This document shows positions 2,079-42,465 of a DNA stretch of 64,000 nt, in pieces. Source of the stretch: Butyrivibrio sp. CB08 (lineage in GTDB: Bacteria; Bacillota; Clostridia; Lachnospirales; Lachnospiraceae). Position 1 is the stretch's first letter. Every line of letters begins with the position of its first letter. Under the pieces are notes generated by a model. That model did no database searches. It had not been told where the DNA came from and was given only the letters and a program-made list of their open reading frames with translations. The translations under genes and the position numbers were made by a program. The stretch is from positions 62,001 through 126,000 of the forward strand of contig NZ_RAIR01000005.1 of assembly GCF_003625485.1 (NCBI RefSeq), written 5' to 3'.

Positions 2079-3839
2079 TCACTTGGCGACCACGCGGTTT
2101 CTGCCGCCTTCCTTAGCTGCGTAGAGGTTCTCGTCAGCTCTTTTTATAAATGATTCCATGTCGTCACCAGCTCTTGCCTCTGTGACGCCAAAGCTCATGG
2201 TGATGTGCCCTACAGTGGCATATTTGTTGTCTTCTATCTGGGTCCTTAAAACTTCTGCGTGCTGCCTTGCACTCTCAAGGTCAGTATCCGGAAGGGCGTA
2301 TATGAACTCCTCACCGCCCCAGCGGCCAAACACATGCATCGGGCCAAGGTTCTCTTTTACAATGTCCACGGACTCCCTAAGGACCATATCTCCCACGTCG
2401 TGACCATAGGTGTCGTTGACGTGCTTGAAGTGGTCGATGTCCATAAATATAAGGGAAACTGGGGACTTGCCTGGCTCGCTCATCTCTAAGATATCGCCAA
2501 GCTTATGCTCAAGCTCCCACCTGTTGTAGATCTTGGTCAGACGGTCTGTATAGGCGATCTTGCCAAGCTCCTTGTTTATGGAATCAAGCTCTATGGAAGT
2601 TCTCTCAAGAAAATGAAGAATCCTGTCCACAAACGGGATAAACTCGCGCTCATCCTCTGCGGTCTTGGTATCTTTGAGGAAATTTATGCATGGCCTTACT
2701 TCGTCGGCAACATTTTTCTCCTCCGACAGTCCAACAGCTACCAGTGAGCTGTTTAAAGCTCCTCCGCCGCCTTCAGCAGGGAAAAAGAGCTCTGCATATC
2801 CGAAAGCCACTGAAGCCTGCGGCGCAAACTCTAAGAATCTTTCAACCTCTTTATACGCCTGATCCTTAAGGAACCTGACTCTGTTGCCACATTCAAAGAT
2901 ATACAGAGCCTCTGGCTTAAAGTCCTGAAGGCCCTTTATGGACCTTCCTATGATGTGGAAGAGATTTTCAGGAACTCCGTAAGAGAGCCTGAAGGTCTCA
3001 CCCTTTATAATATCCGCCGTAAAGCGGATTGAGCCATCTTCTCCATAGCCTGAAGGAACTCGTGCAACCAGGCAGTCTTTTCTGTGAAATACAAATGGGA
3101 ATTCGCAGGTGTTCTCTACGAAATACTTGTTAGGTTTTACATTCAGATACTTGGAATAGACCTCCACTGCGGGCTTGTGGTCTATGGTTGCTATGACGTT
3201 GTCGCCATCTGTCTTGGTGACCAGCATCTCCACTCCGATTTCCTTAAACCCGAGGCAGTTATCCATGTACAGATGGAGGTTGTCACTTGCAAATATCACG
3301 GTTACAATGCCGTTTTTGCTGGCTCTTTTGCCATAAACCTTAAAGTCATTGAGGGCTCTGATGCTTCGTCCGGCCTTGGCACCAAATATCGGAATCTGGT
3401 GGTGGCTAAACTCATTGGTAAAAGAGTGAATAGTGGCACTGCTACATGAATAGCAGACCTGCATGCACTTTGCATCCGGGAAGTACTCAAGCTGCTCGTT
3501 GACCATTCGGCCTGCAACGAAGCCTGTGGCATACTGAAGATCAAAATCCAGCTCGATCAGCTTGGTGTCTTTAAAGAACGTGGCGTTAAGCTCGATGGGA
3601 CAATCCTTGATATCGTACTCCTCATCGGCGATATTGGCACATGTAAAGCCTATCAGACAGGCGTTGCTGCAATTGGCATTGATATAATCAACCATGGCGT
3701 CGTCATCTGCGTCAATCTTGGGATTATTCATCTGAAGCAGAACTCCGCTGGCATTTTTGTAGTCTTCGCTCTCTGTGATCTGCGATACTACGTCTTTTAA
3801 CTCATCAAGGGTGTGAAACGTGTATTTCTTCTGGATCAT
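2079..3839 (-). CDS. FIST sensory domain-GGDEF diguanylate cyclase
   Basis: Residues 1 to about 390 match the FIST_N and FIST_C pattern, a cytoplasmic ligand-sensing module proposed to bind small molecules such as amino acids. Residues about 420-586 form a GGDEF domain with the active-site motif GGEEF at 508-512 and an IYNRW segment at its start. No RxxD inhibitory site is seen just before the motif, so product inhibition may be absent. No membrane segment is visible. The inferred role is synthesis of cyclic di-GMP in response to an internal ligand. It lies 21 bp after the CobW-like GTPase, which suggests co-transcription. The ribosome binding site is GGGAGGG. Confidence 0.85.
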   Translation of the reverse strand: MIQKKYTFHTLDELKDVVSQITESEDYKNASGVLLQMNNPKIDADDDAMVDYINANCSNACLIGFTCANIADEEYDIKDCPIELNATFFKDTKLIELDFDLQYATGFVAGRMVNEQLEYFPDAKCMQVCYSCSSATIHSFTNEFSHHQIPIFGAKAGRSIRALNDFKVYGKRASKNGIVTVIFASDNLHLYMDNCLGFKEIGVEMLVTKTDGDNVIATIDHKPAVEVYSKYLNVKPNKYFVENTCEFPFVFHRKDCLVARVPSGYGEDGSIRFTADIIKGETFRLSYGVPENLFHIIGRSIKGLQDFKPEALYIFECGNRVRFLKDQAYKEVERFLEFAPQASVAFGYAELFFPAEGGGGALNSSLVAVGLSEEKNVADEVRPCINFLKDTKTAEDEREFIPFVDRILHFLERTSIELDSINKELGKIAYTDRLTKIYNRWELEHKLGDILEMSEPGKSPVSLIFMDIDHFKHVNDTYGHDVGDMVLRESVDIVKENLGPMHVFGRWGGEEFIYALPDTDLESARQHAEVLRTQIEDNKYATVGHITMSFGVTEARAGDDMESFIKRADENLYAAKEGGRNRVVAK

Positions 3840-27585: not shown

Positions 27586-27597
27586 TGTTATATAACA
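27586..27597. repeat. Isolated copy of the parS-like palindrome TGTTATATAACA
   Basis: An exact 12-bp copy lies between the convergent sortase and ACT genes, about 4.7 kb from the cluster upstream of parA. Confidence 0.7.
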
Positions 27598-27615: not shown

Positions 27616-27640
27616 AGGGCTCTGTCGATGGCAGAGCCCT
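27616..27640. terminator. Bidirectional terminator between srtB and the ACT gene
   Basis: A 9-bp stem (AGGGCTCTG / CAGAGCCCT) with a 7-base loop is followed by GTTTTTA on the plus strand. Confidence 0.85.
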
Positions 27641-30353: not shown

Positions 30354-30638
30354 ATGAATAAGACAGAACTTGTTGATGCTATCGCAAAGGAAACTGGTCT
30401 TTCTAAGAAGGATTCAGAGAAGGCTGTTAAGGCTTTCACAGACGCTGTATCTAAAGAGCTCAAGAAAAAGGGCAAAGTTCAGCTTGTAGGCTTCGGTACA
30501 TTCGAGACTGCTAAGAGAGCAGCTAGAACTGGTAAGAATCCTCAGACTGGCGCAGCTATCAAGATTCCTGCAGCTACAGTTCCTAAGTTCAAAGCTGGTA
30601 AGGCTCTCAAGGACGCTGTTAACGGCAAGAAGAAATAA
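30354..30638 (+). CDS. hup: HU-family DNA-binding protein
   Basis: The 94-residue protein begins MNKTELVDAIAKETGLSKKD and contains the beta-arm signature GFGTFETAKRAARTGKNPQTG with IKIPA after it, so it is a standard HU. HU bends and compacts DNA and assists initiator binding at origins. GGGAGG precedes the start. Its position next to parA and the origin suggests that the replicon carries its own HU, though a general nucleoid role is equally possible. A strong terminator follows. Confidence 0.95.
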   Translation: MNKTELVDAIAKETGLSKKDSEKAVKAFTDAVSKELKKKGKVQLVGFGTFETAKRAARTGKNPQTGAAIKIPAATVPKFKAGKALKDAVNGKKK

Positions 30639-30753: not shown

Positions 30754-31302
30754 TTAGTTGCCTGTTCTACCTCTAAGCTTCTCTTCCAATGCCTTGTGAG
30801 CCTCGTAAATATCCATATTCTTATCCATATCAAGCTGAATAAGATTTCTGATATACTTTGTAGCTGACATGTTGGCTGCCTTAGCCATATGCTCTACATA
30901 ATCTCTGTATCCCCTGACATCAAGAAGAAGGAATTTCTCTTTTTCGTATCTGCTATTTGCTTTCTCCTTCTGAGATTTAACAGGTTCTTCTGGTTTATTA
31001 ATTTCTACATTAATTTCTTCTTTATCTTTTGGTTCTTCAACCACTACGGTTTTTACAGGAGCTACAGGCTCTACTTTAGGCTCTTCTACAACTTCTACTA
31101 CTTCTGGCTTTTTAATTTCTGGCTCAACAGGTCTTCTGGCTGCTTTTTCGGTGACCTGTCCGGTCAATTTTTCAGTATCGCTTGTTACTTCATTTTCTGT
31201 CTGAGGCGCATCATCTCTGGTTTCCAGCTTGGTCATTCCTGCAAATAATCCCTTACCAGTCTTATTCGCACCCTGCTTTAACATACTCGCTTTGCTTGCC
31301 AT
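30754..31302 (-). CDS. ParB-like centromere-binding protein with ribbon-helix-helix end
   Basis: The ATG at 31302 overlaps the parA stop by one base (TGATG) and has GGAGGAGG upstream, indicating coupled translation. The 182-residue protein has a disordered N-terminal half rich in Glu, Lys, Pro and Val (about 40-120). Its C-terminal domain (about 120-182) has a strand KFLLLDV and helices GYRDYVEHMAKAANMSATKYIRNLIQL, the ribbon-helix-helix pattern of small ParB or ParG partners. It should bind the palindromic sites upstream of parA and stimulate ParA. It has no similarity to canonical Spo0J-type ParB. Confidence 0.75.
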   Translation of the reverse strand: MASKASMLKQGANKTGKGLFAGMTKLETRDDAPQTENEVTSDTEKLTGQVTEKAARRPVEPEIKKPEVVEVVEEPKVEPVAPVKTVVVEEPKDKEEINVEINKPEEPVKSQKEKANSRYEKEKFLLLDVRGYRDYVEHMAKAANMSATKYIRNLIQLDMDKNMDIYEAHKALEEKLRGRTGN

Positions 31303-32129
31303 CACTCATCCTCCTCCAGAAATTCATCAATAAAGTCATCGTAATCTCTTGCAGCTGCAGATCCCCCTGCATATTCGAAGATATCCATCTTCATTGTCTG
31401 CGCTTCTTCTACTGATACGTTAAGCCTTATCTTGGACTTAAATACCTTGGTTCCTAAAAGCTCAGCCTTTTCCTCAATATCGTTAATCCAAATCTTAGAA
31501 TTGGCTGTATTTCTAACCTTTGTAACAAGAATTCCGTCTACCTTAAGCTTATCATTAGTAAAATCGTGGATCTGATCAATGAACTTATATAATCTTGATA
31601 ATCCCTGAAGTGAATATGCTCCTGGCTCCAGTGGGATGATTACCTCATCTGCTACTGTCAGGATATTCATAAGAACTACGCCAAGAGCTGGGCTACAATC
31701 AAAAATGCAGAAATCATAGTTCTTTTTTAGCTTGCTAAAAGCTTCCTTAATAAGTCTCTCTCTTCCAAGTGCTCCAAAGGTCATATCTGCGGAAGCAAGA
31801 TCAATTCCACCAACAATGAGGTCCAGGTTCTCAGCAATAGGAATTATTGCTTTATTTATATCCTTTTCCCCTTTCATAACCTCAAAGAGCTTGGCTGGTA
31901 CATTCTTATAGAAGTATTCCTGCTGTTCTGCTGTAAGCTGCTCAATATCTTCTGGATCAGGATCAATCTCATTTAAATCGATTCCAGCTGTCATAGACAG
32001 GTTCTCCTGTGGATCAGCATCTACCACCAGGACTTTATTGCCCCTTTTGGCAAGGCCAACAGCCATTGCGTAACTTGAAGTGGTCTTGGCCACTCCTCCC
32101 TTTTGATTACTAAATGCAATTATTCGCAT
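31302..32129 (-). CDS. parA: ParA partition ATPase
   Basis: The start at 32129 follows AAGGGG; the longer frame to 32219 runs into the AT-rich site region. The 275-residue protein has a deviant Walker A KGGVAKTT (10-17), the DADPQENLS switch region, and FCIFDCSPALGV as Walker B. It lacks an N-terminal helix-turn-helix, so it is a short-type ParA as on many Firmicute plasmids. With the ParB-like partner it moves the replicon apart before division, using nucleoid-bound ATPase gradients. The promoter must lie within or beside the palindrome cluster, which implies autoregulation. Confidence 0.92.
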   Translation of the reverse strand: MRIIAFSNQKGGVAKTTSSYAMAVGLAKRGNKVLVVDADPQENLSMTAGIDLNEIDPDPEDIEQLTAEQQEYFYKNVPAKLFEVMKGEKDINKAIIPIAENLDLIVGGIDLASADMTFGALGRERLIKEAFSKLKKNYDFCIFDCSPALGVVLMNILTVADEVIIPLEPGAYSLQGLSRLYKFIDQIHDFTNDKLKVDGILVTKVRNTANSKIWINDIEEKAELLGTKVFKSKIRLNVSVEEAQTMKMDIFEYAGGSAAARDYDDFIDEFLEEDE

Positions 32130-32241
32130 ACTACTACCCCTTACTATTTCTTTTTTCCAAAAACTATTATAAGGGTTGGTATATTTATTTTCAATATATA
32201 ATATGTAAAATATATCCAATATATTATCTATGTCGTATATA

Positions 32242-32841
32242 TGTTATATATCATTACATACTAATATATTTTCCGCTCGCCATACTAATGATATATATCA
32301 TATACATAATATCTATTCGATATATATTATTTAGTTTATATTATCTTTGTGATTTTTATTTGCTTTATCCAAAATCTAGATTTTTAACATTATTTAAATA
32401 TGTTATATAACTTATATTACATATTATATCTTCGCTTTTTTATGTAATTCTTTTGTCATTGGATCATTTTCATTTTCTTCAAGGGTCAATTTTTTCCTTC
32501 CAGAAGTCCTGGCACAAGAAGAAAGATCTAAAATATTTCCATTGTTTTTATATATGTTATATATCATTAATGAGGTTTATTGTTCTTTCTAAAGCGTTCT
32601 ACCCCCTGTGTTTATGCTGTTTTCAGCAAAAAGCATATATCTTGGTATCATTACGCCTTCTCAGGAAGCTTCTCTTATAGTTTCTTTGATCTGTGGTCTG
32701 CGCAGAAGCCAATGTTATATAACATATACATCTTATTAATTTATACATTGTTATATAACACATATAGTTTATTAATCAGAATTTTGTTATATAACATATC
32801 TATCATACTAATATCTCTATAAATATAGATGTTATATATCA
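32242..32841. repeat. Cluster of parS-like palindromes (TGTTATATAACA and variants)
   Basis: Exact copies start at 32713, 32749 and 32785, spaced exactly 36 bp. One-mismatch copies start at 32242, 32401, 32555 and 32830, and a two-mismatch copy that is itself palindromic starts at 32289. All are upstream of parA. A cluster of 12-bp palindromes beside parA and a ribbon-helix-helix gene fits a plasmid centromere. The DNA between the 36-bp units is also loosely repeated (TTATTAAT in the first two). Confidence 0.82.
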
Positions 32842-33406
32842 TCTATATTTTCAATATTTTCAATATTTCAAATATAATATATTTCATATATCTATAATAT
32901 ATTCTTAATATAATGCATATAATATATGTTTTCTATGTAATATGTATATTTTATATTTACCATATATATTATGTATCTTATATATTTTTAACAATACATG
33001 TATGTTAAATATAATATTTATAGAATAGAACAAATATATATTAATTAATAAATATATTGAATATATGATTTATACCATAAATATGTTGTATTTGTTAGAT
33101 AAATATAGTATCATATATAAGAGAGATAATTTATATGTTATACATGTAGATGATCCATTTTTACCTTCCTGGATGAAGATCAGGTGGCCAGGATGCTTAT
33201 TGATAAGAAAATCGGTTAAAAGCATTAATTATGATCAATAATGTAGCGTTTTTAATCATAATTCTCTCAAAAAGCTTTTAGGATCATTCAGGAATAAATA
33301 GTCCATAAATAATGTCTAAAAAATGAATTTTATAAAATATAAATAAACAAAATAACGTGTATCGCATTGGTGCAAGAGGTAAACAGACCCCAAAACCGCG
33401 CCAACC

Positions 33407-34507
33407 CGCATGAATACAGGGCTTTTTCAGTCAGTAGAAGTGTATGGAATATAAAGATTTAATTGTTTGCAAGATTACTTGCGTCATAAAATTACAAAAA
33501 TAATGATTTTTATACAATAGCGCATGTTACTGATTTAGTATTTATAGGATATAAGATATATAATTAATACTAGATTCAAGAAATTAAAGTCATATATAAT
33601 TATTTTGACTTGAATCAATATTGAATTTATCAAAATAGTCAATTGCATTTTTGATGTTTTTTATGGAACAGATTAAATGTTATCAACAACTATCTAAATA
33701 TTATGAAGTAGTAATACTATAACAATAGACAAATTAGAATACTATTATTTAGTTACACATGTTATTGAAATAGAAAATATCGTACTGACATCATATAATT
33801 AATTTTGATAATAATTTTAGAATTTATGCTACATTCCTGATAAATTAAAATCAATTTTATTTATATAGAATACATATAATTTGTTAGATTTTAGAGATAT
33901 AATTCAATTTATATCTCTTTTTTGTTGCAAGAATATTGCAAGTTGGTTGCAAGATATAAAGTAAATCCAGTATTTATCTACACTGATCAGAAGTTGTTTT
34001 TTTATATTTTTTAACAGACAATTGTTTATTAATTAATAGCCCTGAAAACATTGATAAATACTGGATTCCTGGATTTTGAAGTGACTTAAATAGGGATGTA
34101 GAGTGAGTAGAAAGGGATTCAAATGTGACAACAATGGGAATCTAAAGTGAACAAATAGGGGATGAGTAGAACCTGGTGTAAGTGATGTCTTTAGGGATAT
34201 AGAGGCACCAAAAAAGGGAACAATGGTGACTAAAAAGGGAAGATTGTAAATAAAGAACAGTACATATTTGAAACGCGCATAAATAGTGGCTTTCAGAAGG
34301 ATTTTGGTTTAAGGGTGACTAAAAGGGGAATATAAAGGTGACTAAAAAGGGAACGAATAAAAACACCTTTTTCAGCTATTTCGGGTAATTAACAGTAAAG
34401 GAAGAATAAGGTATTAGATCCTGATGTAAACCAAAATCAAATTAAACCAGGCATATCTACGAATGGTATCATGAACTAAAACTTGGTGTAAGCCGCATAA
34501 ATACAGG
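33407..34507 (+). repeat. Three dispersed copies of a CGCATAAATACAGG-like motif
   Basis: Copies occur at 33407-33420 (CGCATGAATACAGG, followed by GCTTTTTCAG), 34276-34296 (CGCATAAATAGTGGCTTTCAG with small changes) and 34494-34507 (exact). A looser TTGGTGTAAG-like string lies some bases before the first and third. They may be a second protein-binding family in the origin. Confidence 0.4.
33680..33982 (+). other. Two near-consensus DnaA boxes in the AT-rich region
   Basis: TTATCAACA (33680-33688) and TTATCTACA (33974-33982) each match 8 of 9 bases of TTATNCACA. In such AT-rich DNA this is weak evidence. Confidence 0.3.
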
Positions 34508-35051
34508 AAATTTTATTAAAGGTGACTAAAAAGGGAATGAAATAGATTATAAAGCTTTTCCATATAAGGACCATTTATATAAAGAGCTGCAATTGAGGTA
34601 TAAAACTAAATATTAGGACGTAAAAGAGAAAATAAAGGTCAAAAATCGTCTATAAAAGGCCGTATCGATCTGGTATGGCATCCCAGGATGTAAATCTTTA
34701 TAAGAAATAAAGTTTATGGCGACTTATTTGGTTAGAAATGGTGACAGAAAAGGGAATAAAATTGACTAATAAGATTAATACAATCAGGTCAAAAGTGATG
34801 TAAAGGGGCGCATATTTTTATAAAGGTGCATAAAAAGGGAAGAAAAAAGATTGACCGGATAGGACAACTGAAAATAGTGGTTTTAAGCTGATTTAGCCAC
34901 AAAATATTGTGAAAAATTGCTTGAAAGTGACAAAAAAGGGAATATAATAGAATTAAGGTTGATAAAAAGGGAATGTTATTTATTCCATAGAAACTAAAGG
35001 TGAATAAAAAAGGAACATCTTTATTATACCAATAGGTGTACAAAAAAGGAA
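34081..35051 (+). repeat. Iteron array of the replication initiator
   Basis: About 15 direct repeats related to GTGACTAAAAAGGGAA are all on the plus strand. Exact copies start at 34226, 34338 and 34522. Variants start at 34081, 34103, 34125, 34147, 34315, 34741, 34795, 34826, 34927, 34958, 35000 and 35036, with a weaker one near 34205. The first four are spaced exactly 22 bp, which is one repeat every two helical turns and is classic for theta plasmid iterons. The last copy (35036-35051) covers the ribosome binding site of the initiator gene. Confidence 0.88.
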
Positions 35052-35059
35052 CAATACCT

Positions 35060-36235
35060 ATGCAGAATGAAAAGAGAGATCAGCTTGTAGTAAGTAAGAA
35101 GACTTACAAGAAATCCAACGAACTCATCAACGCCATGGGAAAGGGAACGGCCCTGAGCCAGAAGCTTTTTGCTATCGGAATGCAGAATATTAAGGTTGAT
35201 GAGACCAATAATGTAGTTGCTACTATATATGGAACGGAGCTTCGTAAGATGTTTAAATCAAGCTCTGGGTCTTTGTATGAGCATATTGAAGCTCTTTGCG
35301 ACAGACAGATCAAGGGAGCTACAATTTTCGATTGGAATCTTCTTATGAAGGACAAGGAAAACGGTAAGATTGAGGCTCACCAGGTTGTAACTGATGCTTC
35401 TTTCAAGAATGGAACCCTTACACTTCGTTATAACAACTCTTTGACGGATAAAATCGTCAATCTGCAGAAGGATTACACCGTTCTTAGTTTGGCAGACACC
35501 TTGAGTTTAAAGAGTGTATATTCCTTAAGACTTTATGAGATGCTCAAGTCTGCATATGATTACCAGAGGGCTGTAACCAAGATGCAGGGAGAGATGGTAT
35601 TTGAATACAAGCTTACTGAGCTTAAGCTTGAGCTGGGCATAATTAACTCTGGCGGTAGCAAGGAGATCAAGACTGAGCTTGAAAAAGAGTTCCCAGATTA
35701 CGATAGAATTGACGAACTGGCTGAGAAAACAGGCCAGACCAAGTATAAAGAGTACAAGATATTCAACAGAAACGTATTATCCAAGGCTAAAGAGGAACTC
35801 AATAAAAAGACAAGCCTTCAGGTAGACTATGAGCCCATAAAGAACGGCCGTAAAACTGAAGGAATCAGATTCTTTGTAACCAAGAAAGATGCTGAAGCTG
35901 TTGAGAAAACAGCAGAAGTAGCTGTCAATAAGGACGAGATCTTAGACGATCTTATTGATCTTATGCATGACGACTTTAAGCTCAGGGAGATCAGGGAGCT
36001 GGCTGAACTTGCAGAATATGACTATGACAAGATCAAGAAGTCTTATGATTACATGAACAGTTACAGTTCACCAGTAGATGTTCCCATAGCTTTTATGAAG
36101 GATTGCATCAAGAACGAGTATTATAACAATAAGACCACTAAATTCAGGCCAAAAAGCAGCAATTCCTTCAATAATTTTGAGCAGCGAAATGACTATGATT
36201 TTGAGGAATTGGAAAAGAAATTACTAGACAACTAA
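35060..36235 (+). CDS. Plasmid-type replication initiator (Rep_3 / RepB family)
   Basis: The ATG at 35060 is chosen because AAAAAGGA precedes it; a GTG at 35036 lies inside the last iteron. The 391-residue protein has two winged-helix-like halves. The segment LADTLSLKSVYSLRLYEMLKSAYDYQ near 145-170 is a clear signature of Rep_3 initiators. The C-terminal third is helical and charged. It should bind the iterons upstream, open the AT-rich region and recruit the replisome. The final iteron over its ribosome binding site suggests autoregulation. It is followed by a palindrome site and the AAA+ ATPase gene. Confidence 0.85.
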   Translation: MQNEKRDQLVVSKKTYKKSNELINAMGKGTALSQKLFAIGMQNIKVDETNNVVATIYGTELRKMFKSSSGSLYEHIEALCDRQIKGATIFDWNLLMKDKENGKIEAHQVVTDASFKNGTLTLRYNNSLTDKIVNLQKDYTVLSLADTLSLKSVYSLRLYEMLKSAYDYQRAVTKMQGEMVFEYKLTELKLELGIINSGGSKEIKTELEKEFPDYDRIDELAEKTGQTKYKEYKIFNRNVLSKAKEELNKKTSLQVDYEPIKNGRKTEGIRFFVTKKDAEAVEKTAEVAVNKDEILDDLIDLMHDDFKLREIRELAELAEYDYDKIKKSYDYMNSYSSPVDVPIAFMKDCIKNEYYNNKTTKFRPKSSNSFNNFEQRNDYDFEELEKKLLDN

Positions 36236-36241
36236 TATATA

Positions 36242-36253
36242 TGTTATATAACA
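36242..36253. repeat. Isolated parS-like palindrome between the initiator and ATPase genes
   Basis: An exact TGTTATATAACA lies 6 bp after the initiator stop and about 16 bp before the ATPase start. Confidence 0.75.
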
Positions 36254-36269
36254 AATATAAAGGGGCTTT

Positions 36270-37580
36270 ATGGAAAAAATCGTAGCAAAACTGCTTATTT
36301 TCGGGGATTTACCAGAAGATTCAATTCTTATTCAGCTATCTAAGGTATACAGAGATTTCCACAGCGGAGATTATTCAAAAGATGATCTTATAGCAAGATG
36401 CTACAAGCAGATCAAGTGTCTTTTGGAGCTTGGTACTGCCTGTGCTTTTGACAAGAATCTCTGGCACAATTATCTGACCTATATCCTTATCATGAGTGAG
36501 AATCCATTTACCTTAACCTGTGAAAAAGTGGGCTATAAGGATGGAAGTGTCAATCATTTCGCAAAAAGCGATTTTAAGGCCTTTAAAGAGCTTTTTGACT
36601 ATGACTTTACTGAGCTTGAAAAAGAGCTGGATATAGACTGTTTTAGCTGCATAACTAACTATAAAGCTATAGATAAGCCTCAGCTGATGTATAACAAGAA
36701 TGTCAGCGAAAAAGTCAGGGGACTTAGTGAGAAATTAGAGCAGACAAAAGATGTAGAAGAGTTTTTTGAGGCTGTAACAGGCTTTTACAAGGCTATTGGC
36801 GTGGGAGCATTTGGACTTAACAAGGCCTTCAGGTTTAGAGAATTGCCTACAGGATCCGTGGAATTTATGGCAATAAATAATATGGACACTGTAGTTTTAA
36901 GTGACCTGGTGGGCTATGAGCTTCAAAAAGAAAAGCTCGTTGCCAATACAAGAGCTTTCGTTAAGGGGCAGAGAGCTAACAATGTGCTTCTTTTTGGCGA
37001 CAGTGGAACTGGAAAATCCACCAGTATCAAGGCTATAGTCAATGAATTCTATTCAGAAGGCCTTAGGATGATAGAGATATACAAGCATCAGTTCAAGTAT
37101 CTGTCGCAGGTTATTGCCCAGATAAAGAACAGGAACTACAAGTTTATCATCTACATGGATGACCTGTCTTTTGAAGAGGATGAGTCTGATTACAAGTTCT
37201 TAAAGGCACTTATAGAGGGCGGTGTAGAGACAAGGCCTGACAACATTCTTATCTACGCCACTTCAAACAGAAGGCATCTTATCAAGGAAACCTGGAGAGA
37301 CAGGACAGATGTGGAGCAGGATGGTGATATCCACAGGTCCGACACCATGGAAGAGAAGCTTTCCCTGGCAAACAGATTTGGCGTTACTATCGGTTATTAC
37401 AAGCCTTCAAGGCAGGAGTTCTATGAGATCGTAAGAGAACTGGCCGAGAGAAATGGTCTGGATATTGCCCAGGATGAGCTTAAGCTTGAAGCGGACAGAT
37501 GGGAAATGAGCCATGGAGGCATATCTGGAAGAACTGCCCAGCAGTTTATCGACCATCTCCTTGGAAAGAATGTTATATAA
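36270..37580 (+). CDS. AAA+ ATPase of the DUF815 type
   Basis: The 436-residue protein has an N-terminal helical region of about 200 residues and then an ATPase core. The core shows a VELVGYE-like lead ([17 protein letters not shown]), Walker [10 protein letters not shown] (243-251), Walker [11 protein letters not shown] (292-301), a sensor-type YATSNRRHL and a C-terminal lid with [12 protein letters not shown]. This is the DUF815 family, which is chromosomal in many Clostridia and of unknown role. It starts 34 bp after the initiator stop with AAAGGGG upstream, so it is probably co-transcribed. A helicase-loader-like role is an inference from position only. Its stop codon lies inside a parS-like palindrome. 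Confidence 0.82.
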
Positions 37581-37582
37581 CA
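37571..37582. repeat. parS-like palindrome overlapping the ATPase stop codon
   Basis: An exact TGTTATATAACA includes the last codons and the TAA of the ATPase gene. Confidence 0.75.
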
Positions 37583-37587
37583 AATAT

Positions 37588-37619
37588 AAAGCATATAACC
37601 AATATAAGTTATATGCTTT
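37588..37619. terminator. Terminator after the ATPase gene
   Basis: A perfect 12-bp stem (AAAGCATATAAC / GTTATATGCTTT) with an 8-base loop and a following T-rich run lies between the convergent ATPase and cysteine-rich genes. Confidence 0.75.
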
Positions 37620-37627
37620 ATTTATTA

Positions 37628-37843
37628 TCATGGATTCCATTTTAAGTTAGGACAATTAGGAGCGCAGCCTGCCAGTGCGTTATTTCTGACCTCACAGGAA
37701 GCATTACGGCAGTCACTGCACTTAAATGTATAGTGATATGAATATCTTATCTTGCATGTTCTGCAGCAAAATGGATTGGCGCTGTTTCTCGCGGTGAAAG
37801 ATCGTCCGCATCCCACACAAGTAATGACAACATTATGAGCCAT
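37628..37843 (-). CDS. Small cysteine-rich zinc-ribbon-like protein
   Basis: The ATG at 37843 has GGAGG six bases away; a longer frame to 38083 reads through the divergent hypA start and is rejected. The 71-residue protein has nine cysteines, including CVGCGRSF, CCRTC, CSDC and a C-terminal CAPNC. The paired CxxC and CxxxC spacings suggest two zinc sites. No membrane segment is present. Such proteins often bind nucleic acid or act as small adaptors. It converges with the ATPase gene and diverges from hypA. Confidence 0.65.
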   Translation of the reverse strand: MAHNVVITCVGCGRSFTARNSANPFCCRTCKIRYSYHYTFKCSDCRNASCEVRNNALAGCAPNCPNLKWNP

Positions 37844-37948
37844 ACTCCACCTCCTAACAGTATTATTACAAGAAAATCGGTGACATTCAATTAAATTGTA
37901 GTAAAATGGACATAAAAAATAAATAGTTTCTGAAGTTAGGGATAAGAA

Positions 37949-38296
37949 ATGCATGAAATGAGCTATATTGCAAGAATGGTTTCTCTTGCAGTAGAGGTGG
38001 CAAATGATAATAATGCCAAGAAAGTTAAGAGCATAGAAGTTAGTATAGGTAAAACAAGTGGTGTAATGCCATATTATATGCATAAATACTATCCAGATGC
38101 CTCCAGAGGAACGATTCTGGAAGGAGCTGAGCTTATATGCAATGAAGTACCTGTAACAGCATTATGCGAGGAGTGTGACAGGAAATATGAGCCATCAAGG
38201 GAAAATAACTACCTTTGTCCTCACTGCGGCGGACGTAAGGCTCACATAATTGCTGGAAAAGACGTAGTACTTACAAATGTTGTCATTGAAGACTAA
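37949..38296 (+). CDS. hypA: HypA/HybF-type nickel metallochaperone
   Basis: The 115-residue protein starts MHEMSY, the family N-terminus whose His2 binds nickel. It has the structural zinc site formed by Cys73, Cys76, Cys90 and Cys93 (CEEC and CPHC) followed by GGRKAHIIAG. HypA delivers nickel during maturation of hydrogenase or urease. No hydrogenase or urease gene is in the window. Its direct neighbour is larC, 14 bp downstream, so its nickel may go to the LarC pathway or to a hydrogenase encoded elsewhere. Confidence 0.88.
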   Translation: MHEMSYIARMVSLAVEVANDNNAKKVKSIEVSIGKTSGVMPYYMHKYYPDASRGTILEGAELICNEVPVTALCEECDRKYEPSRENNYLCPHCGGRKAHIIAGKDVVLTNVVIED

Positions 38297-38310
38297 AGAA
38301 AGGCGGATTT

Positions 38311-39564
38311 ATGAAGATACTTTACCTGGAGTGTAAGATGGGCATTGCTGGCGATATGCTGGCTTCAGCTTTACTTAGCCTTTTTGATGACAAAGAAAAG
38401 GTGATTGCAGAGCTTAATGCCATGGGAATCCCCAAGGTTAAATATCAGTTCGGTAAAACGGAAAAATGCGGAATTGTTGGAGATCATATCTCTGTCCTTA
38501 TTGATGGAGTAGAGGAAGAGAGTGTAGATGCAGATCATCATGACCATGACAACGATCACCACCATCATGAACATGATCATCACGAGCATAATGATCACCA
38601 TGAGCACAGACACAATTCACTGTATCAGATAGAAGAAATTATAGAAGGACTTAACATTTCAAAAGAGATTCGCAGCGACATTAGAGAGGTTTATCAGTTA
38701 CTTGCTGAAGCTGAGAGTGAAGTACATGGAGTGAGCGTATCAGAGATCCACTTCCATGAGGTGGGCAATCTGGACGCCATAGCAGATATATCTGCTGTAT
38801 GTTACCTGATGCATGAGCTCGATCCGGACAAGGTTATTGTATCCCCCATAAATGTCGGAAATGGCCAGGTTAAGACCTCGCACGGTATTCTGCCAGTACC
38901 AGCTCCCGCAACAGCGAACCTTTTAAAGGGAATACCAAGCTATTCCTCTGACAGGATAAATGGAGAGCTATGTACTCCTACAGGAGCAGCTCTTGTTAAA
39001 TATTTTGCCTTTGATTTTGGTCCTCAGCCTGTTATGTCAGTAGAGCAGATTGGCTATGGTATGGGCAAAAAAGATTTTCCTCAGGCTAACTGCGTAAGGG
39101 CGCTTTGGGGCGACGCCAAGGACGAGGCAGATGTGGTAGTAGAGCTGTCCTGCAATGTAGATGATATGACTCCAGAAGAGATTGGATTTGCTACAGAGAT
39201 GCTCTTTGAAGCAGGTGCACTGGAGGTTTATACAATATCAATTGATATGAAAAAGAACAGACCAGGCTTCCTTTTGACCTGCATGTGCAGAGAGGATAAA
39301 AAGGAAACAATAGTAAAAACTATCTTCAAGCACACGACAACGATAGGGATCAGAGAGAATATAAGCAGCAGATATGTGCTAAATAGAGAGATCAGAAGGA
39401 TAGAGACGCCCTATGGAGAGGTAAGAATCAAAACTTCTTCTGGATATGACGTAAAACGTAGCAAGTTTGAATACGATGATCTTGCTGGAATCTCCAGAAG
39501 GACAGGAAAATCTGTTTTAGAGCTCAAAAACGAGCTTAAAGATCTGCTACCGTATGAAGAGTAA
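38311..39564 (+). CDS. larC: Nickel pincer cofactor biosynthesis protein LarC
   Basis: The 417-residue protein matches LarC (formerly DUF111): MKILYLECKMGIAGDMLASALL at the N-terminus, HFHEVGNLDAIADI, TPTGAAL, and the C-terminal domain with CNVDDMTPEEIG. A histidine-rich stretch at 75-101 contains 15 His residues and should hold nickel. LarC inserts nickel into the pyridinium-thiol cofactor, using CTP. In some bacteria larC is read as two frames, but here it is one continuous frame. No larA, larB or larE is nearby. AAAGG precedes the start. Confidence 0.93.
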   Translation: MKILYLECKMGIAGDMLASALLSLFDDKEKVIAELNAMGIPKVKYQFGKTEKCGIVGDHISVLIDGVEEESVDADHHDHDNDHHHHEHDHHEHNDHHEHRHNSLYQIEEIIEGLNISKEIRSDIREVYQLLAEAESEVHGVSVSEIHFHEVGNLDAIADISAVCYLMHELDPDKVIVSPINVGNGQVKTSHGILPVPAPATANLLKGIPSYSSDRINGELCTPTGAALVKYFAFDFGPQPVMSVEQIGYGMGKKDFPQANCVRALWGDAKDEADVVVELSCNVDDMTPEEIGFATEMLFEAGALEVYTISIDMKKNRPGFLLTCMCREDKKETIVKTIFKHTTTIGIRENISSRYVLNREIRRIETPYGEVRIKTSSGYDVKRSKFEYDDLAGISRRTGKSVLELKNELKDLLPYEE

Positions 39565-39570
39565 AAATAA

Positions 39571-39603
39571 GAGCTTTAAAGGCTAAAATCGCCTTTAAAG
39601 CTC
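39571..39603. terminator. Bidirectional terminator after larC
   Basis: A perfect 13-bp stem (GAGCTTTAAAGGC / GCCTTTAAAGCTC) with a 7-base loop lies between larC and the convergent lipoprotein gene. Confidence 0.88.
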
Positions 39604-39614
39604 ATTTTTATGTG

Positions 39615-40850
39615 TTATTCGTTTGCAAGTTCCTGTATGGCGTTATGTGAGTTTGTAATAGCTTCATCTACGCTTATTTCGCCGTCAATACACTTTACCA
39701 GCTCTTCGCCAAATACTTCCTCTATTCTTGCCCATTTTGTTGTTCTTGGACGAACTCTTGAGTTGTTGGTTCCGCTATAGAGCTGCTCAAAGAATGGGTA
39801 TTTGCTAAGGACCTCAGGATCTCTGAAAATGCTCTTTCTGGTGGGGACACCACCATATTCAAGGGCCTGTCTTTGTACATCTTCGCTGGTAAGATATGCA
39901 GCAAGCTTAAGAGCCAGTTGTGGGTCTTTTGAATTGCTTGTAACTCCGAGAAGCCAGTTGCCAATCTCTCCGGTAGCAAGAACCTGGGAAGATGAAGTCT
40001 TTTTTCCAGGTATCTGAGCAATCGCTGCGCTCGAACCGCTTCCAGAAATAAACCATGATGGCCACCCCAGTGCTATTCCAGCTTCGCCTGTGGTGATGGC
40101 TTCTATAAGCTCATCTTTACTGTAATTGCCACCAGTCTGGTAGAGCTTGCAGTAGAACTCCAAAGCCTCGCGGCTTTGTCTTGAATCCAGGACAACTTTT
40201 CCGTCTTCGTCAAACAGATCCCCGCCAAAAGCCCATAAAATTGGGAGGAAATCCGATACAATGGGGTTTCCTGACTGGCCGCGGATGGCATAGCCTTTCT
40301 TTCCACTAAGTTTTAGCTCTTCGCATTTTCCATAGATGCCGCTCCAGCTACTAAGAATTGATGGATCTGATATCAGATTTTCATTGTAGAATATCAGCTG
40401 GACATTGCCTGAAAATGGCAGGGCATAAGTAGCCCCAAGTGGATAGGGGTCTTTCCCGAGAAGCTTAGATTTTTCAACGAAATCCTCATCATCAGAATAA
40501 CCAAGCTGAGTGAGGTTTTGTATTATCTTTTTCTCGATGTATTCAGGCATAAGAGGGTCATCTATCATGATGACATCATATATACCTTCAGGATTTGACG
40601 CGTCATCGAGAGCATTTTTATGAATGTCGTCCGCACTCAGTGGAACAACATTTACTACACAGTTATTCTCTGCCTCAAAGGCACCTTTAACTGCGTTTAT
40701 AACATCAGTGTGAGATCCGTCTCTGGCGGCGATAGTAATAGTAGTCTGCGGGCCTTTGGAAGCTTCATTTTTGCCTTCGCATCCAAAGCATGTTACCAGG
40801 AGAACAGATATTAAAAAAACGACAACGGTTTTTTTAAGTATTTGTCTCAT
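39615..40850 (-). CDS. Extracellular solute-binding lipoprotein (ABC carbohydrate type)
   Basis: The 411-residue protein has a lipoprotein signal with Cys24 and the two-lobed solute-binding fold of family 1. Recognisable parts include TITIAARDGSHTDVI near the start, PEGIYDVIMIDDP, LPFSGNVQLIFYN and the C-terminal VPTRKSIFRDPEVL. It would capture a sugar or related solute outside the membrane and pass it to an ABC permease. No permease or ATPase genes are next to it, so it is an orphan receptor or serves a distant or shared transporter. GGAGGGG precedes the start. Confidence 0.88.
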   Translation of the reverse strand: MRQILKKTVVVFLISVLLVTCFGCEGKNEASKGPQTTITIAARDGSHTDVINAVKGAFEAENNCVVNVVPLSADDIHKNALDDASNPEGIYDVIMIDDPLMPEYIEKKIIQNLTQLGYSDDEDFVEKSKLLGKDPYPLGATYALPFSGNVQLIFYNENLISDPSILSSWSGIYGKCEELKLSGKKGYAIRGQSGNPIVSDFLPILWAFGGDLFDEDGKVVLDSRQSREALEFYCKLYQTGGNYSKDELIEAITTGEAGIALGWPSWFISGSGSSAAIAQIPGKKTSSSQVLATGEIGNWLLGVTSNSKDPQLALKLAAYLTSEDVQRQALEYGGVPTRKSIFRDPEVLSKYPFFEQLYSGTNNSRVRPRTTKWARIEEVFGEELVKCIDGEISVDEAITNSHNAIQELANE

Positions 40851-40999
40851 TTTATTCCCCTCCGAATAAGAATAATTTTATCATGTTTTCGATGTGAAAT
40901 ATATGAAAAATTAATAATATATTGATAAAAGTTTGCGCGTTACTGTTGTATAATTATAATTGGAAACTTGTAACCTACACAAACTTTAAGGAAACTGCG

Positions 41000-42403
41000 A
41001 TGCAAGAAAAAGACATAGAGGGAAAAATTGGATATTTGGCAGATGCAGATCTTTCGCCCAGTGACATTCTTTTCATGTTAAAAGAGCTGCCAGACGCCTG
41101 CTGTATATTCAAGGTCCTTACGGATCCCTTTGGAACAGTAAAAGACATGCTGTTTCTTTTTGCCAATGAAAAATATGCACAGCTTACCGGTTATTCTACT
41201 GCAGAGCTTGTCGGAAATACATTTTATAAAACTGTGAATAATCAGGATGAAGACTGGATAAAATTCAGCTATCAGGCTGCGATCCTGCGCCAGTCATCTA
41301 TCAACAGATCTTACAACAGCCAGCATGATATGTGGCTGGAGTTTTGGGTTGTTCCTGTATATCAGAAGGGCTTCTGTGCCTACATTATCCATGACGTAAC
41401 GGCTACTAAAAAAGAAGAGGACACAAGGGCGTTTCAGACCAAGACCAGCAACCTTGTTATTGAGTGTGCAAAGGCAGCTTCAACCTCTGATTTTGCCAAA
41501 GGAACGAAGAGAGTTCTAAGGATACTTGGTCAGACCCTTGAGGCTGACAGGGTATATGTGGTAAGAACTGAAGGAAATAAGCTTATTGACAGGTATGAGT
41601 GGATAAGTAAGAGCGGTTCCTCAGATCTTCCCTCCAAAAAGGTGTTTGAAAAGTACGACCTCGTAGATAAGTGGAACAGGCAGCTTAAGGGCAAGGATTT
41701 CTCCTGCGTGAATGACACTTCTCTTTTAGCGGATCTCGTTCCTGATATATACAATGAGTATTTGGCTGGTAGATGCGCCAGATTTGCAATTTCTGTCCTG
41801 AGGAATAAGGATGAGAGGTTAGGATTTCTTGTAGCGGACAATTACGCCTTGGATTTACAGGTAGATATCTCTGAAGTTATGGAGACCGTAAGTATTTTCT
41901 TATCCTCACAGATCACTAACCACGAGCTCAATCAGGAGCTGAGGTTCCTTGGTGGTCACGATGCGCTTACAGGCCTTGGAAACAGGTACTCTTTAAGTCA
42001 GGAGCTTGGCCTTCTTAGAGAGATGTCAGTATCAGTGGGAGTGTGTTATACCGACATTAATGGTCTTAAGGCTATTAACGATGAAAAGGGACATGAAGCC
42101 GGAGATAAGCTTATCACGGACACTGCAGCGCTCTTCGGAGCGATCTTCAAGAAAAAGTTCTGCTACAGATTTGGCGGAGATGAGTTTATAGCAGTGGTGC
42201 CTGAAATTGACAGGGAGAAATTCTCTGAACTGGTAGAAAAGTTCAGGACCAAGGCAAAAGGTGTTGCCATAGCTGTTGGATGGGAGTGGTCGGACAATTC
42301 CAGCGATGTAAATAAACTCATCAAAAAAGCTGACGACGAAATGTACAAGGACAAGGCCAGATATTATAAGAGCCATGAAAGACGTCATGCCAATAATACA
42401 TAA
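41000..42403 (+). CDS. PAS-GAF-GGDEF diguanylate cyclase
   Basis: The ATG at 41000 follows AAGGAAAC; a longer frame to 40922 lacks a site. The 467-residue protein has a PAS domain at about 20-140 (FANEKYAQLTGYSTAELVGN), a GAF-like domain at about 145-310 and a GGDEF domain from about 320 with LGNRYSL and the intact motif RFGGDEF. No membrane segment is seen, so it senses an internal signal and makes cyclic di-GMP. No RxxD site just ahead of the motif is evident. It diverges from the solute-binding lipoprotein gene and ends at a terminator. Confidence 0.9.
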   Translation: MQEKDIEGKIGYLADADLSPSDILFMLKELPDACCIFKVLTDPFGTVKDMLFLFANEKYAQLTGYSTAELVGNTFYKTVNNQDEDWIKFSYQAAILRQSSINRSYNSQHDMWLEFWVVPVYQKGFCAYIIHDVTATKKEEDTRAFQTKTSNLVIECAKAASTSDFAKGTKRVLRILGQTLEADRVYVVRTEGNKLIDRYEWISKSGSSDLPSKKVFEKYDLVDKWNRQLKGKDFSCVNDTSLLADLVPDIYNEYLAGRCARFAISVLRNKDERLGFLVADNYALDLQVDISEVMETVSIFLSSQITNHELNQELRFLGGHDALTGLGNRYSLSQELGLLREMSVSVGVCYTDINGLKAINDEKGHEAGDKLITDTAALFGAIFKKKFCYRFGGDEFIAVVPEIDREKFSELVEKFRTKAKGVAIAVGWEWSDNSSDVNKLIKKADDEMYKDKARYYKSHERRHANNT

Positions 42404-42410
42404 TAAAAAA

Positions 42411-42436
42411 GAGCAGCTCCCATGCGGAAGCTGCTC
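42411..42436. terminator. Terminator after the PAS-GGDEF gene
   Basis: An 8-bp stem (GAGCAGCT / AGCTGCTC) with a 10-base loop is flanked by an A-run on the left and a T-rich run on the right. Confidence 0.75.
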
Positions 42437-42453
42437 TATATTTTAAACCAAAA

Positions 42454-42465
42454 TGTTATATAACA
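42454..42465. repeat. Isolated parS-like palindrome between convergent genes
   Basis: An exact TGTTATATAACA lies between the PAS-GGDEF terminator and the pta stop, about 9.7 kb from the main cluster. Confidence 0.7.

Follow-up and report, generated by a model that had tools for sequence, protein, structure and literature searches.

Partition loci in which a ParA ATPase works with a ribbon-helix-helix (RHH) protein form the background to the element described here, a set of copies of the 12-bp palindrome TGTTATATAACA around parA in a 64,000-nucleotide stretch of Butyrivibrio sp. CB08 (hereafter the window), itself part of a 280,568-bp contig. Omega, the RHH partner in plasmid pSM19035, has 71 aa, and the centromere-binding protein (CBP) of TP228 is short as well. 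According to the accessible parts of two papers, pSM19035 delta-omega combines ParA and an RHH partner with short, non-palindromic boxes in direct and inverted arrays, and several separate parS sites lie on one replicon (PMC9499535, PMC5016525); its boxes measure 7 bp, the sites lie at the copS, delta and omega promoters, and four or more contiguous boxes are required for full ParA activation (PMC9499535). The type Ib system of TP228, ParFG-parH, likewise has direct and inverted repeats in AT-rich DNA and a flexible N-terminal tail plus RHH, and dispersed copies are not mentioned for parH in the available text (PMC5016525). As far as the same partial sources go, RHH-ParB proteins bind their arrays statically, without spreading beyond parS (PMC9499535), RHH centromeres elsewhere are compact or promoter-bound arrays (PMC9499535, PMC5016525), and RHH systems are enriched on plasmids smaller than 50 kb in a recent scheme that subtypes ParB by a helix-turn-helix (HTH) or RHH motif and not by partner size (PMC13245405). 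Compared with pSM19035, the Butyrivibrio chromid has 9-bp boxes (8-bp in a sister family), an array that is long and degenerate, and satellites of two boxes as far as about 10 kb from it, and the best period is not that of the omega heptads but 9 in 24/24 chromids of one family and 8 in 6/6 of the other.

Chromosomal ParB of the Spo0J type is an HTH, CTP-clamp protein with the motif TGTTTCACGTGAAACA, and the scattered SopC/OB-type sites of RK2 and N15 are bound by HTH-type proteins, not RHH proteins. As in the chromid, the palindromic Spo0J-type sites are dispersed around the origin, and inverted repeats for partition may also be spread across a plasmid-like replicon (PMC5016525, in the part available); thus dispersal itself is not new on plasmid-like replicons, although SopC/OB-type sites, unlike those of the chromid, come without a box array. 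When up to two mismatches are allowed, the canonical 16-mer parS occurs at three places in the CB08 genome, all within C26:159291-159393 (one exact, two with one mismatch), and at none on the contig carrying parA and the RHH-protein gene, whose system does not belong to the HTH/CTPase ParB type. The nearest scattered RHH case, as far as the accessible text extends, is archaeal SegB: SegAB of Sulfolobales also pairs a ParA orthologue with an RHH protein and has a palindromic site clustered near the operon with others scattered, but the system is archaeal, the 13-bp site is TCTAGA-S-TCTAGA rather than the TGTTATATAACA enriched in the chromid, it is mostly intragenic and genome-wide, and a box period is not mentioned in that text (PMC12284271). 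Chromid BPc2 of B. proteoclasticus B316 has 302,358 bp (PMC2914790, in part), and in the B. fibrisolvens chromid the skew switch is where repA, parB and hbs are placed, and neither palindrom nor iteron occurs as a term in the text of that paper as available (PMC6249431). Within the literature covered, no precedent was found for dispersed RHH-protein sites on a bacterial chromid, and work on the Butyrivibrio chromid or centromere, on RHH chromid partition and on DUF815 in chromids did not describe this parS, with subscription papers mostly outside that coverage. New here are the resolution of the 12-mer into two inverted 9-bp boxes, the degenerate 9-bp array, and the 8-bp box of the sister family with its own outliers.

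The 15-kb stretch that holds the 12-mers is the origin region of a Butyrivibrio chromid. We consider it probable, judging from sequence, that the sites are the centromere of this chromid, served by ParA and an RHH protein, with an array of 9-bp boxes and satellites that would be bridged over about 15 kb. A parS centromere had been proposed in a sequence-only reading of the window, and the proposal is supported by conservation across chromids, by a strict 9-bp period, and by the presence of another box where the RHH protein has diverged. The core of the locus comprises the following features.

30754-31302, minus strand: predicted RHH-like CBP (ParB role), from its orthologues and sub-threshold RHH matches
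31302-32129, minus strand: ParA, a Walker-type partition ATPase of 275 aa without an N-terminal HTH (Pfam AAA_31, 5.4e-55, residues 1-197)
32230-33130, outer bounds approximate: putative centromere between parA and the rep iterons, AT-rich and made up of 9-bp boxes in a degenerate array
32242-32253, no strand: one-mismatch copy upstream of parA
32401-32412, no strand: one-mismatch copy upstream of parA
32555-32566, no strand: one-mismatch copy upstream of parA
32713-32724, no strand: exact 12-mer in the array
32749-32760, no strand: exact 12-mer in the array (+36, four boxes)
32785-32796, no strand: exact 12-mer in the array (+36, four boxes)
32830-32841, no strand: one-mismatch copy in the array (+45, five boxes)

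The seven exact copies of TGTTATATAACA that had been noted at 27586, 32713, 32749, 32785, 36242, 37571 and 42454 are all present and span one 15-kb stretch, against a mean of 0.00 in 100 dinucleotide shuffles of the window; at up to one mismatch the window holds 11 copies, against a shuffle mean of 0.21. The 36-bp spacing of the three exact copies at 32.7 kb is borne out, with the following site at +45 bp, as are four one-mismatch copies upstream of parA (32242, 32401, 32555 and 32830) and one two-mismatch copy near it at 32289, the window total of two-mismatch copies being four. Far from being equally frequent across the genome (3,544,402 bp in 29 contigs), the outcome that the sequence-only reading had named as a refutation, the exact 12-mer has 7/7 copies inside the window, and 11 of the 20 genomic copies with up to one mismatch belong to this cluster. 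In the 280,568-bp contig no other of the 4,096 palindromic 12-mers is as frequent: TGTTATATAACA has seven copies, the runner-up two.

Other members of the genus extend this picture. RHH-protein orthologues at E<=4e-28 place 27 of 79 genus genomes, CB08 included, in what we call family 1, and nine more give weak matches; the regions examined come from 25 of the 27 and seven of the nine, with G054 and G073 (cut contigs), G016 and G025 left out. In the 25 family-1 genomes, 46 of 57 exact copies fall within the 8-64 kb examined around the RHH gene, while the other 11 amount to 0.44 per genome and match the 0.46 of the 54 remaining genomes (25 copies), a set that includes G054, G073 and the sister genomes. 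Outside the parA-rep interval (21 chromids, 761,541 bp), TGTTATATAACA is again the top palindromic 12-mer of 4,096, with 31 copies against eight for the next, and the 29 other palindromes of its composition have at most three copies each. Upstream of parA it occurs 13 times in nine genomes, where 0.06 copies are expected in the 24 chromids.

The palindrome consists of two inverted 9-bp boxes, nnnTGTTAT. Its half-site TGTTAT is spaced by 9 and 18 in direct pairs, 6 in inverted pairs and 12 in divergent pairs, and with a box of this form all four spacings reduce to one or two 9-bp steps; an 8-bp unit was rejected for family 1 because the spacings gave 9. In family 1, 79 of 173 box-centre pairs within 60 bp lie at multiples of 9, the box centre having been chosen from the TGTTAT spacings themselves. 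Independently of any motif, identity at lags 9, 18, 27, 36 and 45 over 32700-33130 is 0.505, 0.492, 0.498, 0.570 and 0.516, against 0.284 at lag 8 and 0.228 at lag 10. The strongest period-9 stretch in the window is 32749-33348, and the phasing is weak at about 32.4-32.7 kb. Period 9 is the best among 5-14 upstream of parA in all 24 family-1 chromids (three with less than 800 bp visible), and 0/200 shuffles reach the observed value in each of the seven sequences tested. Coding DNA raises the contig-wide period-9 baseline (mean contrast 0.024), and shuffles give no more than 0.031 against 0.118 for the window; a codon artefact was rejected since the array is non-coding and lags 3, 6, 12 and 15 are not elevated. 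The 9-bp period is shared by several further hexamers in this AT-rich DNA, so the phasing extends beyond the strong boxes. The region upstream of the par operon carries the direct and inverted short repeats typical of type Ib and RHH-ParB systems. The earlier description of spread sites in place of a compact centromere holds for its first half, since the outliers are real and conserved between species, but not for its second: the palindrome being two boxes of a degenerate array of about 0.9 kb, a compact array exists alongside the outliers.

The outlying sites, or satellites, and the genes among which they lie are listed next.

27586-27597, no strand: satellite in the convergent sortase/ACT gap
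36242-36253, no strand: satellite between rep and the DUF815 AAA gene
37571-37582, no strand: satellite overlapping the stop codon of the DUF815 AAA gene
42454-42465, no strand: satellite in the convergent GGDEF/Pta gap
30354-30638, plus strand: HU-type protein gene beside the par operon (Pfam, 4.2e-36)
34195-35053, plus strand: rep iterons, consensus near GGTGACTAAAAAGGGAA, unrelated to the 12-mer
35036-36235, plus strand: Rep3-type replication initiator (Pfam Rep3_N 8.1e-20, Rep3_C 4.3e-15)
36270-37580, plus strand: DUF815 AAA ATPase (Pfam DUF815, 2.1e-97)

The rep/AAA satellite is kept at no more than one mismatch in 21/21 chromids with both genes visible and is exact in 14. A copy in the gap between the AAA and zinc-finger genes is found in four genomes (CB08, G030, G011 and G013), one next to the ACT 3' end in seven (the same four, G052, G022 and G063; the sortase gene of G022 is 1.7 kb more distant), and the copy beside Pta recurs exactly in G030 and G009 and with one mismatch in G003 and G067. 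Across chromids, the flanks of the satellites have diverged while the 12-mer is conserved. The sequence-only reading had placed three of the sites between convergent genes, which is right for 27586, for 42454 and for the 3' side of 37571; the site at 36242, however, lies between the co-directional rep and AAA genes, and 37571 overlaps the AAA stop codon. Site 37571-37582 supplies the last codons and the stop of the AAA gene, whose C-terminus is thus dictated by a DNA site. A separate observation concerns the rep/AAA gap (36235-36270 in CB08), where in nine of 21 genomes the outer arms vary between genomes yet stay complementary, in the manner of a hairpin.

The setting of these sites is that of a replication origin. 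The sign of the GC skew switches at about 34 kb, beside the Rep3 initiator and its iterons, which were rejected as the same element as the 12-mer on account of their different sequence. The partner gene lies directly 3' of parA on the same strand, an order kept in the 24 family-1 regions with ParA visible. The HU gene is present in 24 of 25 family-1 regions, where it adjoins the par operon except in G006 (about 4.5 kb away), and none was detected in the fetched region of G072. The DUF815 AAA gene follows rep in the 21 family-1 chromids with both in view; its product is a possible replication partner, and the fetched sister regions yielded no DUF815 homologue at E<=1e-8. A tblastn search of a plasmid collection with ParA returned at least 5,000 records, all below 60% identity among the matches listed.

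The sister family has an array and satellites of the same plan. Its RHH domain is about 34% identical to that of family 1, the strand region differs, and no exact TGTTATATAACA occurs in the fetched sister regions. Here, the box is TGATGTnn, with a unit distance of 8 in direct, convergent and divergent pairs; 31 of 74 box-centre pairs within 60 bp lie at multiples of 8, and, in the six of seven fetched weak-match genomes used for the period, 8 is the best among 5-14 upstream of parA in 6/6. Outside the sister centromere, no other of the 4,096 hexamers has as many correctly spaced pairs as TGATGT (18, in 6/6 genomes; the next unrelated hexamer has seven), and all 18 pairs fall at three recurring places: -6.4 to -6.7 kb (5/6), +2.1 to +2.3 kb (2/6) and +7.1 to +7.5 kb (4/5 covered). 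With an array at parA and satellites that use another box and another step, the plan has been kept while box and step have changed. Beyond the genus, a sample of 297 genomes from the family's other genera gave the RHH domain in two. The first of these, on L150 (G094:C113), belongs to a 9.7-kb plasmid-like contig with related ParA, RHH-like and Rep3 genes and clear 9-bp tandem repeats just before parA (2981-3518).

The partner protein likely has an RHH fold, as suggested by sequence profiles and structure prediction. Family-1 CBPs have 177-319 aa where complete (the G052 frame is cut) and so are not the small partners of type Ib systems; each consists of a conserved basic N-terminal peptide, a long linker rich in P, E and K, and a C-terminal RHH-like domain that is nearly invariant in the family. 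The first 22 or so residues are conserved, ending in GLFAGM in the protein encoded at 30754-31302, and we take this peptide to be reminiscent of the ParA-activating peptide of ParB. The linker is highly variable in length, with P, Q and E abundant. The protein has no Pfam match at E<=0.001, and a RelB-like profile match at 3e-4 is below the cutoff; an Arc-like match (phrog_582) is seen in four of 16 members, and a NikA-like profile match is also sub-threshold. Among the best 50 of 115 Foldseek rows, Arc comes first at E 0.93, and AtaR, CopASO, NikA and CopG are listed together with non-RHH rows, while PDB sequence searches with the partner protein found no RHH chain. In the AlphaFold monomer of the domain the helices are confident and the strand is not formed, so the monomer is not decisive for the fold.

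A working model would be as follows. Dimers of the RHH protein may bind the nnnTGTTAT boxes cooperatively along the AT-rich array of about 0.9 kb, with the inverted pair TGTTATATAACA as the strongest site, and the array, being upstream of parA, probably covers the par promoter as well. The two-box satellites, most of which lie at gene ends and all about 3.5-10 kb away from the array, would bind further RHH dimers, and looping or bridging, through the long linker or dimer contacts, would draw some 15 kb of origin DNA together in a single partition complex for ParA to move over the nucleoid. The dispersed sites may thereby replace the spreading of chromosomal ParB, since spreading is not known for an RHH protein, which lacks a CTP clamp domain; and because pSM19035 needs four or more contiguous boxes, the two-box satellites may act by joining the array and not by activating ParA alone.

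Several observations weigh against this model. The copies at 32242, 32401 and 32555 are out of mutual 9-bp register, with spacings up to 32713 that are not multiples of 9, and the flanks of the outliers mostly show little 9-bp phasing (phase 0 is best in 16/64, with about seven expected). Several outliers are not common to all species, and the fetched regions of G068, G072 and G038 contain no exact copy, little parA-upstream DNA being visible in G072 and G038. The RHH assignment draws on sub-threshold profile and weak Foldseek matches, and the DNA-binding strand is unformed in the monomer. Moreover, family-1 and sister replicons differ also in Rep3 and in DUF815 in the fetched region, so that the change of box cannot be assigned to the RHH protein in particular; G344, the second of the two distant matches outside the genus, has neither 9 nor 8 as its best period (6 is best, followed by 8); and the related genomes in the counts are not independent.

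One alternative keeps the RHH protein as the reader of all the sites but would place the outliers outside the centromere, as operators for rep and copy control in the manner of omega on pSM19035. The RHH-ParB of pSM19035 does regulate promoters overlapping parS, according to the available text (PMC9499535), and the best-kept outlier (21/21) lies directly after rep and before the AAA gene; but 27586, 37571 and 42454 sit where convergent genes meet at their 3' ends, places at which the neighbouring genes should have no promoter, and we regard operators as unlikely, though the best placed of the competing accounts. Less likely again is that the 12-mer serves origin handcuffing or replication control as the site of another replicon protein (Rep3, the DUF815 AAA ATPase or HU). 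This would suit the adjacency of the most constant site to rep and the AAA gene, as well as the fetched sister regions, in which both the DUF815 homologue and the exact motif are missing. However, Rep3 owns iterons of a different sequence, the array lies directly upstream of parA, and the 9.7-kb contig has its 9-bp array before parA although neither AAA815 nor HU was detected there.

That the 12-mers are parts of terminators or RNA hairpins at gene ends is improbable. Perfect arms of 8-16 bp continue beyond the 12-mer at nine of 21 rep/AAA-gap sites, where pairing at positions 6-8 is 57, 57 and 66%, against 23, 27 and 32% with shuffled partners, and two of 18 other outliers (G011 and G013, sortase/ACT gap) have 10-bp arms. 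The remaining 16 of the 18, however, have arms of 0-2 bp, the array copies lie away from gene ends, no exact 12-mer occurs elsewhere in the genome, and separate terminator-like hairpins, as consensus matches only, stand beside the convergent-end sites (27616-27640, 37586-37621 and 42410-42437). Terminators were accordingly rejected for the window sites, which have their own hairpins adjacent, and a partial overlap is retained for the rep/AAA gap and the two other sites. A chance origin in AT-rich sequence, or a mobile repeat, for which the 24% G+C of the 2-kb bin with the array might speak, was rejected as having next to no probability in view of the shuffles, the same-composition palindromes and the genome-wide count, and of sites that are syntenic across chromids while their flanks have diverged.

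The centromere reading has implications for how large replicons are partitioned. HTH ParB proteins slide along DNA in a CTP-dependent way and so bring kilobases of it together, a picture in which the place of RHH proteins is called unclear in the accessible text of PMC9499535. Tentatively, and with slightly more doubt than conviction, we suggest that in Butyrivibrio a plasmid-type RHH centromere has turned chromosome-like, such that selected satellites and a flexible CBP linker would yield a complex of about 15 kb without CTP-driven spreading, and that the 9/8-bp step has been re-tuned while the dispersed plan was kept. Chromids of 280-300 kb with an RHH-like system and conserved satellites would offer a direct test of whether dispersal substitutes for spreading, and the switch between 9 and 8 bp in the sister families may serve as a natural experiment on the spacing of RHH dimers.

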